Part shown: positions 11,763 to 42,336 of the stretch, one piece after another
How the letters are laid out: each line of letters opens with the position of its first letter
How positions within the stretch are numbered: the stretch's first letter is position 1
Notes under the pieces: generated by a model
Seen by the model: only the letters and a program-made list of their open reading frames with translations
The model's database searches: none
Told to the model about the DNA's origin: nothing
Program-made: the position numbers and the translations under genes
Assembly (NCBI RefSeq): GCF_030270585.1
Contig: NZ_BSYI01000039.1
Location: 1-53,783, forward strand
DNA length: 53,783 bases
Source: Paralimibaculum aggregatum
GTDB lineage: Bacteria > Pseudomonadota > Alphaproteobacteria > Rhodobacterales > Rhodobacteraceae
Reading direction: 5' to 3'

Positions 11763-12221
11763 ATGACCGATTTCAAGCTCAACGGACGGGAGGTCTCCCT
11801 CTCGATTCCCGAGGACACCCCGCTTCTGTGGGCGCTGCGCGACGAGCTGCGGATGACCGGCACCAAGTTCGGCTGCGGCATCGCGCAATGCGGCGCCTGC
11901 ACCGTGATGATCGACGGCGTCGCCAGCCGCGCCTGCGTGACCCCGGTCGCGGCCGTCGCGGGCTCGGAGGTCACCACCATCGAGGGCCTCGAGGGCCGCG
12001 AGGCGGCGGCGGTGCGCGAGGCCTGGGTGGCGATCGACGTGCCGCAATGCGGCTACTGCCAGTCCGGCCAGGTGGTGGCGGCCACGGCGCTGCTGCGCGA
12101 GACGCCGAAGCCGAGCGACGAGGACATCGACTTCGCCATGGAGGGCAATGCCTGCCGCTGCGCCAGCTATGTGCGCATCCGCCAGGCGATCCACGACGCC
12201 GCCGCCAAGCTGGAGGGCTGA
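11763..12221 (+). CDS. iorA: 2Fe-2S subunit of molybdenum aldehyde/isoquinoline oxidoreductase
   Basis: A 152-aa small subunit with the two [2Fe-2S] motifs of the xanthine-oxidase family. The plant-type ferredoxin motif is GCGIAQCGACTVMIDG with a later Cys in SRACVTP. The second cluster is in QCGYCQSGQ plus ACRCASYVRIRQA. It passes electrons from the molybdenum subunit encoded 3 nt downstream. IorA is the best-known member, but many such pairs act on aldehydes. No cytochrome c subunit gene follows, so the final electron acceptor is not encoded here. Confidence 0.92.
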   Translation: MTDFKLNGREVSLSIPEDTPLLWALRDELRMTGTKFGCGIAQCGACTVMIDGVASRACVTPVAAVAGSEVTTIEGLEGREAAAVREAWVAIDVPQCGYCQSGQVVAATALLRETPKPSDEDIDFAMEGNACRCASYVRIRQAIHDAAAKLEG

Positions 12222-25009: not shown

Positions 25010-25023
25010 GCCGCCTGCACCCC

Positions 25024-25051
25024 GGGGGAGCCGCCCTGCCGCGGCTCCCCC
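25024..25051 (+). terminator. strong hairpin terminator after MetX-like gene
   Basis: A perfect 11-bp stem (GGGGGAGCCGC at 25024-25034, GCGGCTCCCCC at 25041-25051) with a 6-nt loop starts 15 nt after the stop and is followed by CGCTTG. It isolates the next, operator-controlled unit. Confidence 0.75.
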
Positions 25052-25077
25052 GCTTGACCGCGCCGCCCCCGGCCCGA

Positions 25078-36103: not shown

Positions 36104-36155
36104 TCCGGTGACGGCGGCAGGCAGCGGCCGCCGCGGCATCACAGGGGAGGACGCG

Positions 36156-37046
36156 ATGAAGGTTGGGTTCATAGGGCTCGGCGCCATGGGCGGGCGGATG
36201 GCCGCCGTGCTGGCCGGCGCCGGGCATGGCGTGGCGGGCTTCGATCTCTCCTCCGAGGCGCTGGCCCGGCTCGAGGCGGCGGGCGGCATCCCGGTCTCGA
36301 GCGCCGCGAGCGCCGCTGCCGGCGCCGAGGCGCTGGTGCTGATGGTGGTGAACGCCGCCCAGGCCGAGACCGTGCTCTGGGAGGCCGGCACGCTGGCGGC
36401 GCTGCCCGAGGGGGCGCTGGTGATCTCCTGCGTGACCATGCCGCCGGCCGATGCCGCGCGGATCGCCGGGCGGGTGGAGGCCGAGGGCCGGCGCTTCCTC
36501 GACGCCCCGGTCTCCGGCGGCAGCAAGGGGGCCGAGACCGGCACGCTCACCTTCATGGTCGGCGGCGCGCCGGCGGATCTGGCCAGCGCGCAGCCGCTGC
36601 TCGAGGCGATGGGCCGGCATGTCTTCCACATGGGCGAGAACGCCGGCGCCGGCAGCACCATGAAGATGGTGCACCAGCTCGCCGCCGGCGCGAACCTCGC
36701 GGTGGCCGCCGAGGTGATGAGCTTCGGCGCGCATCTCGGGCTCGCGCCGGCGCAGCTGCTCGAGGTGCTCAACGTCTCGGCCGGCGGCTCCTGGATGATC
36801 GCCGATCGCGGCCCGCGGATGATGGAGGCGGGCACCGAGGCGCGCTCGGCGGTGGACATCTTCGTGAAGGATCTCGGGATCGTGACCGATGCCGGACGGG
36901 CCGCGCGCTTTCCCCTGCCGGTCTCGGCGGCGGCGCTGCAGGTGTTCCTCGGCGCCTCGGGCGCGGGCTTCGGCGGGCATGACGACAGCCAGGCGGTGCG
37001 GTTCTACGAGGCGCTCGGCGGCAGGCGGGTGCGCCGCGGGGACTGA
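36156..37046 (+). CDS. ltnD: L-threonate dehydrogenase (3-hydroxyisobutyrate dehydrogenase family)
   Basis: A 296-aa beta-hydroxyacid dehydrogenase. NAD motif VGFIGLGAMGGRMAAVLA, substrate loop DAPVSGGSKGAETGTLTFMVG, catalytic Lys in STMKMVHQLAAGANLA. The K-x-x-H-Q-L form, instead of K-x-x-N-N of 3-hydroxyisobutyrate dehydrogenases, is a mark I associate with LtnD/YgbJ-type enzymes. LtnD oxidises L-threonate at C2 to 2-oxo-tetronate, parallel to DenD for D-erythronate. GGGGAGG precedes the ATG. Confidence 0.85.
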   Translation: MKVGFIGLGAMGGRMAAVLAGAGHGVAGFDLSSEALARLEAAGGIPVSSAASAAAGAEALVLMVVNAAQAETVLWEAGTLAALPEGALVISCVTMPPADAARIAGRVEAEGRRFLDAPVSGGSKGAETGTLTFMVGGAPADLASAQPLLEAMGRHVFHMGENAGAGSTMKMVHQLAAGANLAVAAEVMSFGAHLGLAPAQLLEVLNVSAGGSWMIADRGPRMMEAGTEARSAVDIFVKDLGIVTDAGRAARFPLPVSAAALQVFLGASGAGFGGHDDSQAVRFYEALGGRRVRRGD

Positions 37047-37075
37047 GGGGCGGGGCCAGAAGGCTGGGGCCGGAA

Positions 37076-37150
37076 GGCCCGCCGCGCCCCACCCCTGCGC
37101 CGTCGCGGCGGCTGCGCGGGCAGCGCGGCCCACCCACGGCGCGGCGGGCC
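37076..37150 (+). other. 3'-end hairpin element, copy A (after ltnD)
   Basis: A perfect 13-bp stem (37076-37088 with 37138-37150) encloses a 49-nt core (37089-37137) shared with copies B and C. The core contains CCCCTGCGCCGTCGCGGCGG near its start and CGGCCCACCCAC at its end. It lies 29 nt after the ltnD stop in sense orientation. The rest of the 37047-37486 gap apart from copy B shows no gene. Confidence 0.8.
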
Positions 37151-37398
37151 GGGCCGCGGGGCCGGGGCGGGCAACCTCCGGGCAGGGAACCGCCCGCGGC
37201 ATCCGGCAGGAGGGTGCGATGGCCCCCACCGGCGCGCGCCGCCCCGGATGCGATCCGCCCACCGGGCGCCCCGGGGCAGCGCGGGACGGAGCCTGCCCGG
37301 CGCCGCATGCCCGGCAGCCGAAAACCGGGCCGGGCCAGGACCCTGCGCCGTGATACACCAGGGGCCGCCACGAAGTCGCGCCATGCCAGTCCGTTCCC

Positions 37399-37479
37399 GG
37401 CACCCGGGCGTGCCATGGGTGGGCCGCGCTGCCGGCGCCGCCGCCGCGACGGTGCAGGGGCGGGGCGCGCCCGGGCGCC
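37399..37479 (-). other. 3'-end hairpin element, copy B (after lacI-type gene)
   Basis: The same 49-nt core as copy A, on the minus strand (37463-37415). It is flanked by a 16-bp stem of different sequence (37464-37479 with 37399-37414) containing 14 Watson-Crick pairs, one G-T wobble and one mismatch. It begins 7 nt after the stop codon of the LacI-family gene, in sense orientation for that gene. Confidence 0.8.
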
Positions 37480-37486
37480 GGCCGGC

Positions 37487-38575
37487 TCAGCCCGGCGGCG
37501 CGCCGCAGCTCGCGCGGATCACCAGCTTCGGGTCGAGCGCGATCCGGCGCGGCGGCGCGCCCGGCTCCTCGAGCCGCTGCAGCAGCATCTCCGCCGCCAG
37601 CCGGCCGATCTTCGCCGGGTTGTCGAGCACCGTGGTCAGCGCCGGGTGATAGGCCGCCGCCTCCTCGGTGCCGCCGAGCGCGACCACGCCGAGATCCCGC
37701 CCCGGCTCGACCCCCATCGAGCGCGCCGCGTTCATCGCGCCGAAGGCCACGAGGTCGTTGAAGGCGACGAGCCCGGTCACCCGCGGCGCCTCGGCGAGCA
37801 GCGCCCGCGTCGCCGCGCCGCCCTCGATCAGCCGCGGCCGGCACTGCCGCCAGAGCCGCGCGTCCCAGCCGATCCCGGCGCCCTCGAGCGCCTCGCGGAA
37901 CCCGGCCACGCGCTCCTCGGCGACGGTGTTGCCCGGCTGGCCGCCGACCAGCGCGATGTGCCGGTGGCCGAGCGACAGCAGCCGCCCGGCCGCGCGCGCC
38001 ATCGCCGTCCGGTCGGCATTGACCACCCAGTCGGCCCGCTCGTCCTCGCGGATCCGGCGCGAGACATAGACCACCGGGGTGCCGCGCTCGGCGATCGGCG
38101 CCAGGATCTCCGGCCCGACATGCGGCGGCGGCGACACCAGCAGCCCCTCGGCGCCATGCGCCGAGAGCGTCTCGACGAAGCGCGCGAGGCTCGGCGCCTG
38201 CTCGCCGTGATTGTTGATGAAGACCGAGAGCCCGGCCGCCCCCAGCGTCTCCTCGATGGCGATCAGCATCTCGGCGAAGAACTGGTGCGCGATGTTGTGA
38301 AAGCTCACCCCGACGATGCGCGAGCGCCCGGTGCGCAGCGCGGCGGCGGAGACATTGCGGACATAGCCGGCCTCGGCGATCGCCTCGCGCACCAGCCGCC
38401 GGGTCTCGGCCGAGATCATCGGGTTGTCGCGCAGCGCCAGCGAGACCGTCGCCGGCGAGAGGCCGAGGCGCCGGGCGATCTCGCGCTGGGTCGGCCGGCG
38501 GCCGGGGCGCTCCGGTCGGTCGCCGCGGCTCACCCGGTGGCCCGTTTTCCCGCCGTCACAGCGGCGCCTCGCCAT
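37487..38575 (-). CDS. LacI family transcriptional regulator
   Basis: A 362-aa repressor. The helix-turn-helix and hinge are TQREIARRLGLSPATVSLAL, then ISAETRRLVREAIAEAGY and LRTGRSRIVGV. The periplasmic-binding-like effector domain follows (about 85-355), with VYVSRRI, GHRHIALVGGQPG, AFNDLVAFGAM and a normal C-terminus. The start is uncertain: ATG 38575 lies inside the preceding DUF1311 gene with no ribosome site, and GTG 38533 would give 348 aa. It is the only LacI-type gene here and the natural candidate to bind TAAATCGATTTA. The variant site at 39514, upstream of its own operon, suggests autoregulation. Confidence 0.9.
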   Translation of the reverse strand: MARRRCDGGKTGHRVSRGDRPERPGRRPTQREIARRLGLSPATVSLALRDNPMISAETRRLVREAIAEAGYVRNVSAAALRTGRSRIVGVSFHNIAHQFFAEMLIAIEETLGAAGLSVFINNHGEQAPSLARFVETLSAHGAEGLLVSPPPHVGPEILAPIAERGTPVVYVSRRIREDERADWVVNADRTAMARAAGRLLSLGHRHIALVGGQPGNTVAEERVAGFREALEGAGIGWDARLWRQCRPRLIEGGAATRALLAEAPRVTGLVAFNDLVAFGAMNAARSMGVEPGRDLGVVALGGTEEAAAYHPALTTVLDNPAKIGRLAAEMLLQRLEEPGAPPRRIALDPKLVIRASCGAPPG

Positions 38576-39002
38576 AGGTGATCGGCGCCAGCTCGCGCGG
38601 CACGCGATAGCGCCAGACCAGCTGGCGGGTGCGGGTCTGGGCGGTGAGGATCAGGCATTCGCCCTCGTATTGCTGGCCGGCCGCGGTGCCGCCGTAATGC
38701 GCGCGCACCCCGTCGACGCATTCCGCCAGGCGATACTCCTCCCAGGCGCGCTGGGCGATCAGCGCATGCTGGGCGAGCACCGGGCCATCGGCGCCGCCGA
38801 CCGCGTCGATGCGCCGGCGCGCGGCCTGCCAGACCTTGTCGAGCTCGGCCTCCACGCGGGCCACCTTCTCGGCATAGCAGGCGGCGAGCCCGGGCTCGGT
38901 GGTGGCATCCTCGCAGGCCGCCCGCGCCGCCCCCGGCAGCAGGCCGGCCAGCGCCGCCGCCACCAGCGCCGCCGGCAGCGCCCCGCGGCGCGCGGCGCTC
39001 AC
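38556..39002 (-). CDS. exported DUF1311 (LprI-like) protein, second copy
   Basis: A 148-aa protein with a signal peptide (ALVAAALAGLLPGAARAACED) and the DUF1311/lysozyme-inhibitor LprI-type repeat: EPGLAACYAEKVARVEAELDKVW, QRAWEEYRLAECV, EGECLILTAQTRTRQL. Four Cys remain in the mature chain, probably two disulfides. It starts at a GTG that overlaps the previous stop (GTGA), so it is coupled to the first DUF1311 gene, and it runs 20 nt into the LacI gene. The function of most family members is unknown. Confidence 0.82.
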   Translation of the reverse strand: MSAARRGALPAALVAAALAGLLPGAARAACEDATTEPGLAACYAEKVARVEAELDKVWQAARRRIDAVGGADGPVLAQHALIAQRAWEEYRLAECVDGVRAHYGGTAAGQQYEGECLILTAQTRTRQLVWRYRVPRELAPITYGEAPL

Positions 39003-39430
39003 GGCGTCGCCCGCATGGCAAGCGGCGCGGCATCGGGGTCGATGTCGTAGCGCCGGACCAGCTCGCGGGTGCGCCGGGTGGTGGCGGCGTGCAGGCAGCC
39101 GGCGATCGCGCTGCCGGCGCCCGAGCCGCCCCACCACTCGTAGCCGACGACGTCGTGGCAGTCGGTGTCCTTGAAGGCGATCCAGCTGCGCTGCGCCGCG
39201 ACCAGCCGGGCGCGCCAGTCGGCCCGCTGCCCGGCCGAGAGATGGTCCATCTCCGCAATCCGCCCGAGCACCAGCGTCCAGATCCGGTTGAGCTCGGCAT
39301 CGGCGGCCTCGGCCTCGCCGGCCATGCAGGCGGTGAATTCGAGATTGTTGCCGGTGTCCTCGCAGAGCGCCGCCGCCGCAAGCGGCGCGAGCGCGAGCTG
39401 AACTCCCAGACAGGCGCCTGCGATGCGCAT
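38999..39430 (-). CDS. exported DUF1311 (LprI-like) protein, first copy
   Basis: A 143-aa periplasmic protein. The signal is MRIAGACLGVQLALAPLAAA. The mature part has LEFTACMAGEAEAADAELNRIW, QRSWIAFKDTDCHDVVG and GCLHAATTRRTRELVRRYDI. Domain and cysteine layout match the second copy, so this is a tandem duplication that has diverged strongly. The ATG at 39430 has GGGAGGG upstream. It is divergent from the 295-aa dehydrogenase across an operator variant. Confidence 0.82.
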   Translation of the reverse strand: MRIAGACLGVQLALAPLAAAALCEDTGNNLEFTACMAGEAEAADAELNRIWTLVLGRIAEMDHLSAGQRADWRARLVAAQRSWIAFKDTDCHDVVGYEWWGGSGAGSAIAGCLHAATTRRTRELVRRYDIDPDAAPLAMRATP

Positions 39431-39513
39431 CCGATCCCTCCCGCGGGGCCCGGCCGGCGGCCGCGCGGACCCCGGCGGGCCATGCCCGTTTGCACTCCTG
39501 ACGGGCATGAGCT

Positions 39514-39525
39514 TAAATCGTTTTA
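39514..39525. promoter_or_regulatory. LacI-type operator variant (11 of 12)
   Basis: TAAATCGTTTTA differs from the repeated palindrome by one base. It lies 26 nt before the dehydrogenase start. A promoter fits: TTGCAC at 39490-39495, 17-nt spacer, TTAAAT at 39513-39518, again with the operator on the -10 box. It is also upstream of the leftward DUF1311-LacI operon. Confidence 0.7.
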
Positions 39526-39551
39526 GCGAAGTCAGGCAAGCGGAGGGGACG

Positions 39552-40439
39552 ATGAACGGGAAACCTGTGGTTGGCTTCATCGGGGTCGGCCTGATGGGCT
39601 GGGGCATGGCGAAGAACGCGGTGGAGAAGGGCTTCCCGCTCCGCGTCGTGGCGCATCGCAAGCGCAAGGCGGTGGAGGATCTCGTCGCGCGCGGCGCCGA
39701 GGAGCGCGCCGGCGCCGCCGAGCTGGCCGCCGAATGCGACATCATCGTGCTCTGCGTCACCGGCTCGCCGCAGGTCGAGGCCAACATCGCCGAGATCCGC
39801 GGCCGCGCCCGCCCCGGGCTCACCATCATCGACAGCACCACCGCCGATCCGGGCTCCACCGAGGCGCTCGCCGCCAGCCTCGCCGAGGACGACATCACGC
39901 TGATCGACGCGCCGCTCTCGCGCACCCCGGCGCATGCCTGGGACGGCGAGCTCACCACCTATGTCGGCGGGCCGGCGGCAGAGATCGAGCGGATCCGACC
40001 GCTGCTCGAGACCTGGGCGAGCGCGATCATCCCCACCGGCGGGCCGGTCGGCTCGGCACATGCGCTGAAGCTGGTCAACAACCTGATCGGCATCGGCTAT
40101 GCCGCGATCTGGTCGGAAGCCTATGCCATGGTCGAGCGGCTCGGCGTGCCGCCCGCGGTGCTGCACGAGGTGGTGACGAATTCCGGCATGACCTGCGGCA
40201 ACTTCCAGAACTATTCGAAATACGTGCTGGAGGGCGACAACTCGGCGCACAAGTTCGCGCTGGCCAACTGCCTCAAGGATCTCGGCTATTACAGCCGGCT
40301 GGCGGCCGAGCACAACGCCCCGACGCTGGTCTCCGACGGGGTGCTGCAACTGCTGAAGATCGGCGTCAATCTCGGCCATGGCGAGCGCTACATGCCGGAG
40401 ATGGTCGAGATCGTCCGCGCCCTGCACCCGCAGGACTGA
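39552..40439 (+). CDS. NAD(P)-dependent beta-hydroxyacid dehydrogenase (3-hydroxyisobutyrate family)
   Basis: A 295-aa relative of LtnD and GarR: NAD motif VGFIGVGLMGWGMAKNA followed by AHRKRK (favouring NADP), CVTGSPQVEANI, DAPLSRTPAHAWDGELTTYVG and catalytic Lys in AHALKLVNNLIGIGY (the K-x-x-N-N form). SRTP replaces the usual SGG substrate loop, so the substrate probably differs from that of ltnD. GGAGGGG precedes the ATG. The operator variant upstream places it in the acid-sugar regulon; tartronate semialdehyde or a tetronate are guesses. Confidence 0.88.
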   Translation: MNGKPVVGFIGVGLMGWGMAKNAVEKGFPLRVVAHRKRKAVEDLVARGAEERAGAAELAAECDIIVLCVTGSPQVEANIAEIRGRARPGLTIIDSTTADPGSTEALAASLAEDDITLIDAPLSRTPAHAWDGELTTYVGGPAAEIERIRPLLETWASAIIPTGGPVGSAHALKLVNNLIGIGYAAIWSEAYAMVERLGVPPAVLHEVVTNSGMTCGNFQNYSKYVLEGDNSAHKFALANCLKDLGYYSRLAAEHNAPTLVSDGVLQLLKIGVNLGHGERYMPEMVEIVRALHPQD

Positions 40440-40451
40440 GCGCCGCCGGCT

Positions 40452-40556
40452 CCGGCTCCGGCCGGGCCCGCCGCCTCCCATGGGTGGGCCACGATGCCGG
40501 CGCAGCCGCCGCGACGGTGCAGGGGCGGGGGAGGCGGCGGGCCCGGCCGGAGCCGG
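40452..40556 (-). other. 3'-end hairpin element, copy C (after the 573-aa gene)
   Basis: The same 49-nt core (minus strand 40528-40480) held in a perfect 28-bp stem (40529-40556 with 40452-40479) whose sequence differs from the stems of copies A and B. It lies between convergent gene ends, in sense orientation for the leftward 573-aa gene, 58 nt after its stop. It could also stop rightward transcription. Confidence 0.85.
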
Positions 40557-40614
40557 CGCCCCGCCCGGTCCCCCTGCCCCGCCCGCTGCCCGTCAGGCGC
40601 CCGCGGGGCGCGCG

Positions 40615-42336
40615 TCAGGCGATGGTCTGCTCGATCCGGTCGAGCGCCTGGCCGAGCGGCCCGCGGATGTCGACCTTCACGCCGAAGGGGTTCTTCTCGC
40701 AGAGATCGACCAGCTTGTTCGAGCCGAGGAAGCCGCGATAGCTGGAGACCTGCTCGCGCAGCTTGGTGGTGGCGGTCTCGCGCGCCGGGCCGGCGGCCAT
40801 GTTGTAGTCGAACAGCGCCTTGGTCAGCGCGGTCTGGTTACCCTCGGTGGCGCCATTGAGGCCGAACTCGGCGATGCGGTCGAGATCCGGGTGGCCGATG
40901 CCGCGGATATGGCTGGTCAGCGCCGCGATGCCGGTATCGGCGGTCTCCTTGGCGCTGCGCCAGATCGCCAGCGGATCGCCGCCGTCGCCCGGCTCCGAGG
41001 CCCCCTCGGCAGCCTCGATCTCGGCCACCAGCGTCTCGATCGACGCCTCGGCATCGACGAGCTGGCCGGCGCGCAGCATGCTCTGGATCTCCTTGGCGCG
41101 CGCCGCGAAGCCGCGGGCGAGCTCGAGCTGGCCGGCCTTGCCGAGCGCCGCGATCCGCTTGCCGAGCCGGACCAGGATCGCCTCGAGCCGCTTGGCGGCG
41201 TCCTCGGGCGGCGGCGGCGGCGCTGCCGCCGCCGCGAGGCCGGCCTCGAGCCGCACGATCACCGGCTCGGCGCCGGCGCCGTCGCCGGCCTTCAGCAGCG
41301 CACCGGCCTCCTTGGCCAGCTTGGCGAGCTCCGGGCCCTGCGGCGGCGGCACCGCGGCGATCTTCGGCACCGCATCGGTCAGCCGCTTGCGCAGCGCCGC
41401 GATGTCGATCTCCTGCGGCGGCGGCGGCGGCGCCTCGGGCGGTGCCTGCTCCTCCGGCGGCGCCTGCTCCTCCGGCGGCAGATCGGCGGTCTCCTCCTCG
41501 AGCACCTCGTCCTCGGGGTCCACCGTGTCGAGATCGAAGGGCTCGAGCTTCTCGTCGACATCCTCGTCGGCGCCGTCGATCTCCTGCCCGCCTTTCAGGA
41601 TCTTGACCCGGCCGAAGGAGCTGATCTTCATCTTCTTGAGCATCAGCTTCACGCGCTTGGCGAGGCCGGGGATGTTGCGCCCCTCGAGATGCAGCACCAG
41701 GGTGCGGGCGCCCTCCTCCTCGCCGCCGAGCTCGCTGCTCAGCGCCTCGGTGCCGGCCTGGCCGAAGGTGAACTTCTTCGCCCCCACCGCCTTCTTCAGC
41801 TTGCCGGCGAGGCCGCGCCCGGCCTTCTTCGGGTGGAACAGCATGCGCATGTCGCCGGGCTCGTTGGTCGGCAGGCCGACGGCGAAGTTGAACACCCGCT
41901 TCTTCAGCTTGCCGGCGGTCTTCTTGAGATAGGCCGAGTGCAGCCCCGGATCGGCGATTTTGTCGCCGCTCTCGTCCTCCTCGTCGAGGTCGGGCATGCC
42001 GGAGAGCGCGGCTCCGATCTCGCGCGGCAGCGCCTTCTCCATCACCGAGATGGTGTTCTTCAGGTCCTCGAGCCGCTCCTTCTTGGCCTTGGCCTTCTTC
42101 TCCGACTTCTCGAGATCCTTGGCCTCCTGCGCGACCTTGCGGCCGGCATCCTCGAGATCGTCGAGCGCGCTCTCGAAGGCCTCGATCGCCTTGGCATCGG
42201 GATTGCGCAGGCCGGCATTGGCCTTGGTGTAGGCATCCAGCGCCTTCTCGAAGGCCGCGCCCGACTTCTTCAGCCCGTCGGGGGCCTCCTTCTTCCACCA
42301 AGCCTTGTTGAGCTGAATGGCGTTGCCGCTCTTCAT
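40615..42336 (-). CDS. unrecognised 573-aa protein, coiled-coil and proline-rich
   Basis: Not recognised. No signal peptide. Layout: a charged, helical N-terminus (1-120) with AWWKKEAPDGLKKSGAAFEK and a Lys/Glu coiled coil around EKSEKKAKAKKERLEDLK. A basic globular part (150-250) has MLFHPKKAGRGLAGKLKKAV and LVLHLEGRNIPGLAKRVKLM. An acidic linker follows (260-300), then two Pro-rich stretches (QAPPEEQAPPEAPPPPPQ and AAAAPPPPPEDAAKR) flanking short helical repeats. The C-terminal block ends NPFGVKVDIRGPLGQALDRI. GGGAG precedes the ATG. The modular build suggests a scaffold or cytoskeleton-like protein; no function is claimed. Confidence 0.8.
   Translation of the reverse strand: MKSGNAIQLNKAWWKKEAPDGLKKSGAAFEKALDAYTKANAGLRNPDAKAIEAFESALDDLEDAGRKVAQEAKDLEKSEKKAKAKKERLEDLKNTISVMEKALPREIGAALSGMPDLDEEDESGDKIADPGLHSAYLKKTAGKLKKRVFNFAVGLPTNEPGDMRMLFHPKKAGRGLAGKLKKAVGAKKFTFGQAGTEALSSELGGEEEGARTLVLHLEGRNIPGLAKRVKLMLKKMKISSFGRVKILKGGQEIDGADEDVDEKLEPFDLDTVDPEDEVLEEETADLPPEEQAPPEEQAPPEAPPPPPQEIDIAALRKRLTDAVPKIAAVPPPQGPELAKLAKEAGALLKAGDGAGAEPVIVRLEAGLAAAAAPPPPPEDAAKRLEAILVRLGKRIAALGKAGQLELARGFAARAKEIQSMLRAGQLVDAEASIETLVAEIEAAEGASEPGDGGDPLAIWRSAKETADTGIAALTSHIRGIGHPDLDRIAEFGLNGATEGNQTALTKALFDYNMAAGPARETATTKLREQVSSYRGFLGSNKLVDLCEKNPFGVKVDIRGPLGQALDRIEQTIA

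Follow-up and report, generated by a model that had tools for sequence, protein, structure and literature searches.

The window analysed here is the whole stretch of 53,783 nucleotides (53.8 kb) from contig NZ_BSYI01000039.1 of Paralimibaculum aggregatum. Three related hairpins lie in it close to the ends of genes:

36108..37046, plus strand: gene labelled ltnD in the initial annotation, stop codon 29 nt before copy 1 (ORF with codon-score gene call)
37076..37150, G-rich strand minus: expanded G4-hairpin copy 1, arms 37076-37088 and 37138-37150 (13 bp, perfect)
37089-37137: loop of copy 1, with GGGTGGG and GGGGTGGGG inside
37399..37479, G-rich strand plus: expanded G4-hairpin copy 2, arms 37399-37414 and 37464-37479 (with defects), loop 37415-37463
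37487..38533, minus strand: gene labelled lacI in the initial annotation, end 7 nt from copy 2 (ORF with codon-score gene call)
39567..40439, plus strand: gene, end 12 nt before copy 3 on its G-sense side (codon-score gene call)
40452..40556, G-rich strand plus: expanded G4-hairpin copy 3, arms 40452-40479 and 40529-40556 (28 bp, perfect), loop 40480-40528
40615..42336, minus strand: 573-aa gene, end 58 nt from copy 3 on its C-sense side (codon-score gene call)

As the initial annotation reported, these elements share a 49-nt core, which has three matches in the window (up to three mismatches) and none in 100 shuffles. Both perfect stems were recovered by an inverted-repeat scan (limit: score 12, loop up to 75), at which limit the whole window contains only six inverted repeats; the middle stem, with 16 pairs in 18 positions, falls under the limit. 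The orientation described for the elements was also found, the C-rich strand being the sense strand of the gene that ends 29, 7 or 58 nt away in all three cases. A gene on the opposite strand also stops 12 nt before copy 3, which makes the context of this copy convergent. Taken alone, folding stability does not set copies 1 and 2 apart (z -0.3 to -1.3); copy 3 is the only unusual one (z -4.7 and -5.3). A scan of positions 36500-41000 with the Rfam covariance models gave no match up to E 5.

The quadruplex motif and its stems

Judged from sequence, the hairpins are members of a large family with a predicted G-quadruplex motif at the tip, each with its own stem sequence. In the minimal element this motif, usually GGGTGGGYGGGYGGG, is exactly at the apex of a long copy-specific stem. 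The 49-nt core represents an expanded form of this minimal element, and the window copies fall in that expanded subclass, whose central quadruplex loop has been lengthened by about 33 nt. The window's genome holds 52 minimal copies and at least 33 expanded ones. Although the core had been put forward as the conserved unit, genome-wide its middle ~33 nt are exchanged for unrelated inserts or missing, while the G-tracts on either side (GGGTGGGC...GGGGYGGGG) are constant. The small hairpin suggested within the core is likewise not a common feature, the inserts of the expanded copies having no one shared inner fold.

Four G-tracts of three with short loops are present at 53 sites GGGNGGGNGGGNGGG in the genome, 52 of which have pyrimidine spacers; the expanded copies, with one loop of ~33 nt, fit this short-loop motif only loosely. 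In six out of six minimal examples, ViennaRNA with quadruplex terms, using RNA parameters, placed a quadruplex at the tip of the G-strand stem; on the C strand it placed none. Stems reach 38 positions and the quadruplex loop is 15 nt.

Stems that change while pairing is kept had been read as the mark of a selected structure, and the mismatch and arm-swap counts used to measure compensation agree with this. Among the 52 minimal copies, pairing falls from 0.88 between a copy's own arms to 0.44 between swapped arms. Copies without flanking complementarity are rare, since 51 of the 52 minimal copies have strong stems (stem score >=8) and 33 of the 34 expanded-pattern matches have at least nine paired positions. 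The arms are for the most part copy-specific (left-arm identity between copies 0.448 vs 0.416 shuffled). Flanks are thus generally not shared by descent, but 54 of 1326 arm pairs have >=75% identity (shuffled rate 0.24%), so subfamilies with related stems do exist.

Position and strand relative to genes

A gene 3' end lies within 60 nt of 63 of the 85 copies in the window's genome, and two minimal copies are inside called genes. Gene ends at this distance are distributed as follows:

Minimal copies, window's genome (n=50): C-sense only 29, G-sense only 5, both 6, neither 10
All copies, window's genome (n=83): C-sense only 40, G-sense only 9, both 14, neither 20
Other genera (n=79): C-sense only 47, G-sense only 3, both 8, neither 20, inside gene 1

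The elements are therefore 3'-end elements with an orientation rule, as had been proposed, and their orientation relative to genes is not random. The contexts of all copies are convergent (24), tandem (49), and divergent (4), compared with 19, 99, and 36 in the intergenic background. With the C-rich strand serving in most cases as the gene's sense strand, it is the template strand for transcription that carries the quadruplex motif. This preference is weaker in the expanded copies (tandem C-sense 5, G-sense 8). A U-tract (>=4 T in the next eight nucleotides) was looked for after gene-side stems; none of the 77 from this genome has one, and 7 of the 55 from other genera do.

Stem mismatches in the minimal copies of this genome are G·T rather than A·C on the quadruplex strand (41:7, p 6e-7), with the same direction in C-sense (21:4), G-sense (8:1), and convergent (11:2) contexts. 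The ratio in other genera is 35:6 (p 5e-6). As the G strand tolerates G·T in every gene orientation, selection in the minimal copies does not act on the transcript hairpin; a strand-specific mutational process could be an alternative source of the polarity. For expanded copies the polarity is not significant, either in the score-chosen register (9:3, p 0.15) or in the Watson-Crick-only register (4:0, p 0.12). The regularities seen in the minimal copies are weak throughout the expanded class, window copies included, and we infer from kinship that the window copies function like the minimal ones.

Relatives and the replication strand

A further 42 genera of the family contributed 92 distinct sites, 79 of which have stems; at 32 similar sites elsewhere in the Alphaproteobacteria there are none. 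The minimal motif occurs in at least one copy in 102 of 394 family genomes, including the window's; an earlier idea of a genome-private family, drawn from the expanded core, was dropped once this was found. The expanded core itself has no match in 148 other family genomes and three in a wider genome contig collection; the one in Marinibacterium profundimaris seems genuine, and the other two seem fortuitous. A match on a Microvirga plasmid, in a stretch without annotation, is also chance-like. A phage origin was rejected, as the expanded pattern is absent from the viral contigs and only one of 48 viral GGGTGGGCGGGCGGG sites has a stem, of score 8.

Insertion of the core into pre-existing palindromes was considered, and rejected, using the 88 gene neighbours of copies, seven of which have an orthologue (>=45% identity) in 400 kb of the congener G001. 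The element is absent at all seven of these gene ends, and an ordinary hairpin can be seen by eye at no more than two; at the site matching the L142 copy, the next operon gene starts at once. The palindromes therefore look new, seven sites in one relative being a thin sample.

In G074, a relative with long contigs, all 22 sites examined have stems, including L398 and L408, which have the same stems as L396 and L364 and were left out of the distinct-site set because their 15-nt flanks are equal to those of these two loci. A repeat of about 430 bp (94-95% identity) carries the element at three G074 loci, and the same stem is found at two more. Ends of rRNA or tRNA operons were rejected as the site of these loci, which carry the ~430-bp repeat and no tRNA; none of the five has an Rfam match at gathering score.

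The G strand of the motif is on the G-poor strand at 29 of 29 motif sites on four G074 contigs. Leading-strand identity comes from GC skew alone, measured well only in G074, where the skew is opposite in one of 20 stretches (near 1.0 Mb of C1), and on this basis the G-poor strand of G074 was taken as the leading-strand template. Genes in G074 are unbiased (51% leading; 174/339 genes, 19 stretches), and copies near a gene end there still obey the gene-strand rule. Copies also run on the same strand over contigs in G624 (10 listed sites), G638, and G100, and in G747 with the exception of one site. Concordance is weak in the window's genome (21/28 adjacent pairs, p 0.013) and in G702 (17/26).

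A candidate barrier at gene ends

One-way facing along the chromosome in some relatives, together with placement at gene ends, suggests a one-way stop or pause signal in DNA. C-sense placement at gene ends, the G·T polarity, and the strand rule in G074, all for minimal copies, speak for a DNA element over one acting in mRNA. The elements may be polar DNA-encoded barriers that lack a U-tract, probably terminators or else pause sites; this is the best explanation we can offer, held tentatively and at a little under an even chance. Once unwound, or when negatively supercoiled, the G strand would adopt a DNA fold made of the stem and the quadruplex, and the folded element would be a polar barrier to RNA polymerase leaving the upstream gene, the template-strand quadruplex taking the place of the U-tract of ordinary terminators. 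On the same view, the replication-strand rule would come from selection that keeps quadruplexes off the lagging-strand template while it is single-stranded. The terminator first suggested for these hairpins survives as the best functional guess, moved to the DNA level by minimal-copy mismatches that favour the G strand over the RNA of the upstream gene. Passages of one report give bacterial G4s downstream of transcript ends as enriched 2.78-fold on the template strand vs 1.54-fold (PMC12581993); the same passages, however, describe template-strand G4s as depleted right around transcript ends. In one study, (G3T)8 in Escherichia coli with G on the lagging template had mutation 5- to 174-fold higher in one background, although for a (G4T)4-dimer the higher rate, by fourfold, came with G on the leading template (PMC10530614).

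A further reading, possible but more doubtful, is that quadruplex-capped hairpins form a new class of one-way gene-end signal in DNA, locked both to the transcription template strand and to the leading-strand template, in which a template-strand DNA structure, and not an RNA hairpin, stops RNA polymerase and couples termination to replication direction. The elements would then be usable only by genes running with the fork.

A mobile REP/MITE-like element, spreading via single-stranded DNA by a transposase or recombinase that recognises the G-strand hairpin, is unlikely but accounts for several observations. Copy number is patchy (GGGTGGGCGGGYGGG occurs 40 times in this genome and in none of four congeners), related-stem subfamilies exist, a repeat carries the element at several G074 loci, and the element is missing at the seven congener gene ends. 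Strand-biased insertion and the folding constraint would come from the enzyme, with 3'-end placement a residue of purifying selection. REP/BIME elements, associated with RAYT transposases, are dispersed extragenic palindromes at gene ends, as are those described here; unlike them, this family has a conserved loop and variable stems (left-arm identity being close to the shuffled value), and unlike the conserved terminal inverted repeats of MITEs its arms are mostly copy-specific, so that the element is not simply copied. A search for Y1 tyrosine transposases (PF01797), the one transposase family covered, gave no match in the window's genome, which is 98.7% complete, and none in three of the four congeners; adherence to the gene-strand rule in G074 despite its unbiased genes also speaks against mobility.

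It is quite improbable that the element acts in RNA. The mRNA of the upstream gene would then carry, in its 3' UTR, a hairpin with a C-rich loop that blocks exonucleases, loads Rho, or terminates transcription. Sites near stop codons, the C-rich strand as sense, and compensating stems would suit this reading, but it predicts G·U in the C-strand RNA, seen as A·C on the G strand, and the opposite was observed both here and in other genera; the U-tract is also lacking, and the replication-strand locking is left unexplained. A chromosome-architecture signal read by a translocase or helicase, as are FtsK-orienting (KOPS) or Chi sequences, is very improbable despite the same-strand contig runs, because it needs neither 3'-end placement nor a gene-strand rule, locking is weak in G702 and the window's genome, and the G motif is on the strand of lagging identity, opposite to KOPS and Chi, whose G-rich motif is on the leading strand.

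The putative DNA barrier resembles intrinsic terminators in being a GC-rich hairpin just past the stop codon, but differs in its missing U-tract, its 15-nt quadruplex loop in place of a short one, its stems of up to 38 positions, and the constraint on the G strand rather than the transcript (in minimal copies; expanded 9:3). Quadruplex-duplex hybrids, like the E. coli G-quadruplex-hairpin-duplex switch, also join a quadruplex to a duplex stem; the present family differs in spanning many genera, with a strand rule and with compensating stems particular to each copy. Xanthomonas GGGAATC and Nostoc GGGGA(C/T)T repeats are described, in passages of one report, as dispersed intergenic G4-forming sites near stop codons, where transcripts start or stop more often (PMC4692102). 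They differ in being tandem heptamers, and for Xanthomonas these passages give about equal strands, with no leading/lagging preference and no clear coding/non-coding preference. Intrastrand triplex motifs of bacteria are also dispersed G/C-rich structures, but, as set out in part of their description, require one C-rich and two G-rich stems (PMC4666352), rather than four G-tracts in the loop of a mixed-sequence stem. No family of quadruplex-capped hairpins was recognised among the top-ranked results of a literature search of partial coverage.

The usefulness of DNA quadruplexes in bacteria is debated. The family described here is a natural set, with dozens of copies in some genomes and many genera represented, and it has built-in controls in its varying stems, unvarying loops, strand rule, and copy-free relatives. 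It would allow a direct test of whether a template-strand quadruplex terminates transcription, and of the reason for its exclusion from the lagging template.

Quadruplex-motif hairpins in the source genome

The initial annotation proposed three hairpins in the window, sharing a conserved 49-nt core on stems of differing sequence; re-examination bore out the copies, their coordinates, and their stems.

37076-37150, minus strand, expanded hairpin (copy 1)
37399-37479, plus strand, expanded hairpin (copy 2)
40452-40556, plus strand, expanded hairpin (copy 3)

No Rfam covariance-model match was found in window positions 36500-41000. A blast-type search of the source genome (5.5 Mb, 201 contigs) with copy 3 as query returned 74 matches, partial and self-inverted ones among them; scoring of first-look candidates covered 40 of 468. 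A gapped pattern of the expanded core matches exactly at 28 places in this genome; 148 other Rhodobacteraceae genomes (one per genus) yielded no match. Read side by side, the copies have an interchangeable core middle, with several unrelated inserts between GGGTGGGC and GGGGYGGGG, and one blast match has no insert, carrying GGGTGGGCGGGCGGG, a plain quadruplex motif, atop a perfect stem. Such elements are termed minimal, and those with an insert of about 33 nt in the central loop expanded. Elsewhere in the window, the hairpins at 2295-2331 and 25023-25052 (16 and 12 bp, loops of 5 and 6) are without a quadruplex loop, and a perfect 18-bp inverted repeat at 1644-1735 lacks the G-tract pattern in its 56-nt loop.

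The source genome contains 53 GGGNGGGNGGGNGGG sites, 40 of them exact GGGTGGGCGGGYGGG. All 52 sites with a pyrimidine spacer have a stem score of at least 6, and 51 of the 52 at least 8 (median stem length 26, maximum 38 positions); the sole site with a purine spacer is stemless. Over the first 16 positions, pairing is 0.883 between a copy's own arms versus 0.439 for arms swapped between copies, and the mean identity of arms from different copies is close to that of shuffled sequence (0.448 vs 0.416). Stem subfamilies nevertheless exist, since 54 of 1326 arm pairs are at least 75 % identical (shuffled rate 0.24 %), and one, with stem CCCGCCGCCTCC, occurs among both minimal and expanded copies, thereby linking the two classes. 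In all six minimal copies tested, ViennaRNA with quadruplex terms (RNA parameters) placed a quadruplex at the stem tip on the G strand. Regular-expression searching identified at least 33 expanded copies, making at least 85 elements with the minimal ones; the total is estimated to exceed 100. A further expanded subtype, with an insert of 30-odd nt preceded by GGTGGGGG and followed by GGGGTGGGCGGG, lies at 11848-11968 of extracted locus L240 and at least 14 similar places in this genome (E <= 4e-9), with long stems in the three inspected.

Background was sampled from 398 kb of the source genome, comprising the whole of contig C1 and stretches of C2 picked for holding copies. Nineteen inverted repeats score at least 14 there, and under a loose criterion the loops of 18 carry a G-run (doubtfully in one case); in unselected C1 alone the figure is six out of six, the doubtful one counted. 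In 400 kb of one congener there are 10 such repeats, one with the loose G-run flag and none with the motif, and GGGTGGGCGGGYGGG has no site in four congeners. The G-rich hairpin of two congeners, G003 (L108, L118, L126) and G002 (L112, L134), is of another kind: GGGTGGGCGC-GTTY-GCGCCCGCCCT-GGGGGCGGG and close variants, resembling a terminator or an intrastrand-triplex motif.

Occurrence in other genomes

Most genomes compared are drafts. GGGYGGGYGGGYGGG occurs 52 times in the source genome versus at most three times in any other of 385 Alphaproteobacteria across the class (five from its own family), and none of 32 such sites examined elsewhere reaches stem score 8. At least one GGGTGGGYGGGYGGG is present in 102 of 394 family genomes (the source genome counted; otherwise nearly all one per genus). 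Stems were found at 79 of 92 distinct sites in other genera and were lacking at 13; the 42 genomes concerned include 15 chosen chiefly because their motif counts were higher. The Marinibacterium profundimaris genome carries an expanded copy whose stem is entirely different.

GGGTGGGYGGGYGGG counts and adjacent pairs of sites on the same strand in family genomes
G041: 122 sites
G702: 42 sites; 17/26 pairs
G022: 36 sites
G074: 30 sites; 25/25 pairs
G624: 27 sites; 9/9 pairs (among sites listed)
G747: 23 sites; 11/12 pairs
G638: 9/9 pairs
G100: 7/7 pairs
G704: 1/1 pair
All relatives combined: 79/89 pairs

G041, the richest family genome sampled, has its 122 sites in 4.0 Mb, 61 per strand, with stems at both loci examined. 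Six stemless sites in other family genomes (L288, L295, L297, L302, L305, L306; near position 1500) have a common alternative layout, a GGGGGC..GCCCCC hairpin (L302 has a variant of the stem), some four bases, GGGTGGGYGGGYGGG, and then, at most of the sites, a C-rich stretch; this layout may be a second 3′-end motif.

Gene ends, mismatches, and replication strand

Genes were called with a simple codon-score caller made for this analysis. All called gene ends of the source genome lie outside the stems (smallest distance 0), the smallest distance in other genera is -10, and two minimal copies of the source genome sit within called genes. Neighbours are termed C-sense or G-sense according to whether their sense strand is the C-rich or the G-rich strand of the element.

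Gene ends within 60 nt of the element
Source genome, copies outside genes (n=83): C-sense only 40, G-sense only 9, both 14, neither 20
Source genome, minimal copies (n=50): C-sense only 29, G-sense only 5, both 6, neither 10
Other genera (n=79): C-sense only 47, G-sense only 3, both 8, neither 20, within gene 1

The elements favour convergent regions and avoid divergent ones (24 convergent, 49 tandem, 4 divergent, 8 unassigned or within genes in the source genome, against an intergenic background of 19, 99, and 36 in contig C1 and the window's contig, C39). Gene-strand preference is less clear in the expanded class (n=33: tandem C-sense 5, tandem G-sense 8, convergent 12, divergent 3, unassigned 5). 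A U-tract after the stem is not a feature in the source genome or other genera.

Read on the G strand in a fixed register of 20 positions, mismatches in the 52 minimal copies are G·T or T·G in 41 cases versus A·C or C·A in 7 (P=6e-7; 26 vs 3 by copies). The sense is the same whatever the direction of the neighbouring gene (C-strand reading 21:4, G-strand reading 8:1, convergent 11:2). In other genera, with the register chosen by Watson-Crick pairs alone, the counts are 35 versus 6 (P=5e-6; 31 vs 5 by copies). Among the 33 expanded copies the imbalance has the same direction but is not significant (9:3 or 4:0 depending on register). In genome G074, an intergenic dispersed repeat of about 430 bp carries a quadruplex hairpin and is 94-95 % identical at L364, L396, and L411, its stem recurring at L398 and L408; among three aligned copies of the stem, two have a G·T pair where one has a compensated A-T pair.

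The motif tends to stay on one strand across whole contigs in those relatives that have long ones; in the source genome 21 of 28 adjacent pairs share a strand (P=0.013). The plus-strand GC skew of G074 is +0.065 and +0.057 on two contigs with all sites on minus, and -0.107 and -0.111 on two with all sites on plus, with one of 20 stretches, near 1.0 Mb of its contig C1, of opposite sign. By contig average, the G strand is thus the G-poor strand at 29/29 sites (the contig of the 30th lies outside the skew measurement). Gene direction does not cause this bias, as 51 % of G074 genes are leading (174/339, odd-skew stretch excluded). Skew sign is concordant in short G747 stretches around copies and in source-genome contigs C1, C2, and C3, where skew is weak. 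Strand assignment takes the leading strand to be the G-rich one, as is usual (SkewDB, PMC8941118). Pseudomonadota quadruplexes are reported generally to prefer the leading strand (PMC12581993), and the placement here runs against that preference as reported.

A proposed polar barrier and its alternatives

The minimal copies show three rules: gene-end position mostly with the C strand as sense, G·T over A·C mismatches, and, in relatives with long contigs, a tendency to keep one putative replication strand. A mobile single-strand-DNA element, which we consider unlikely, would account for the patchiness and the strand lock, but leaves the gene-strand rule unaccounted for, and no Y1 transposase was found in the source genome. 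A transcript hairpin as the selected structure, which we consider less likely still, would predict the opposite mismatch polarity at C-sense genes. If the strand assignment is right, deamination on the exposed lagging template would also predict the opposite polarity.

A polar barrier is the simplest reading that would account for all three rules. On its way out of the gene, RNA polymerase would have the quadruplex strand as its template, and so would the leading-strand polymerase that follows it. The replication-strand rule would stem from G-tract instability on the lagging template, as described for (G3T)8 in E. coli; the same paper describes the opposite behaviour for a (G4T)4 dimer (PMC10530614). 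The closest published case is that of the Xanthomonas and Nostoc repeats, likewise near stop codons and tied to transcript starts and stops, although the Xanthomonas repeats are without a strand rule (PMC4692102). The three window copies belong to the expanded class, which adheres least to the polarity and strand rules, and the rules would extend to them from the minimal copies by kinship. From the sequence patterns, the likely function of the family is transcription termination or pausing.
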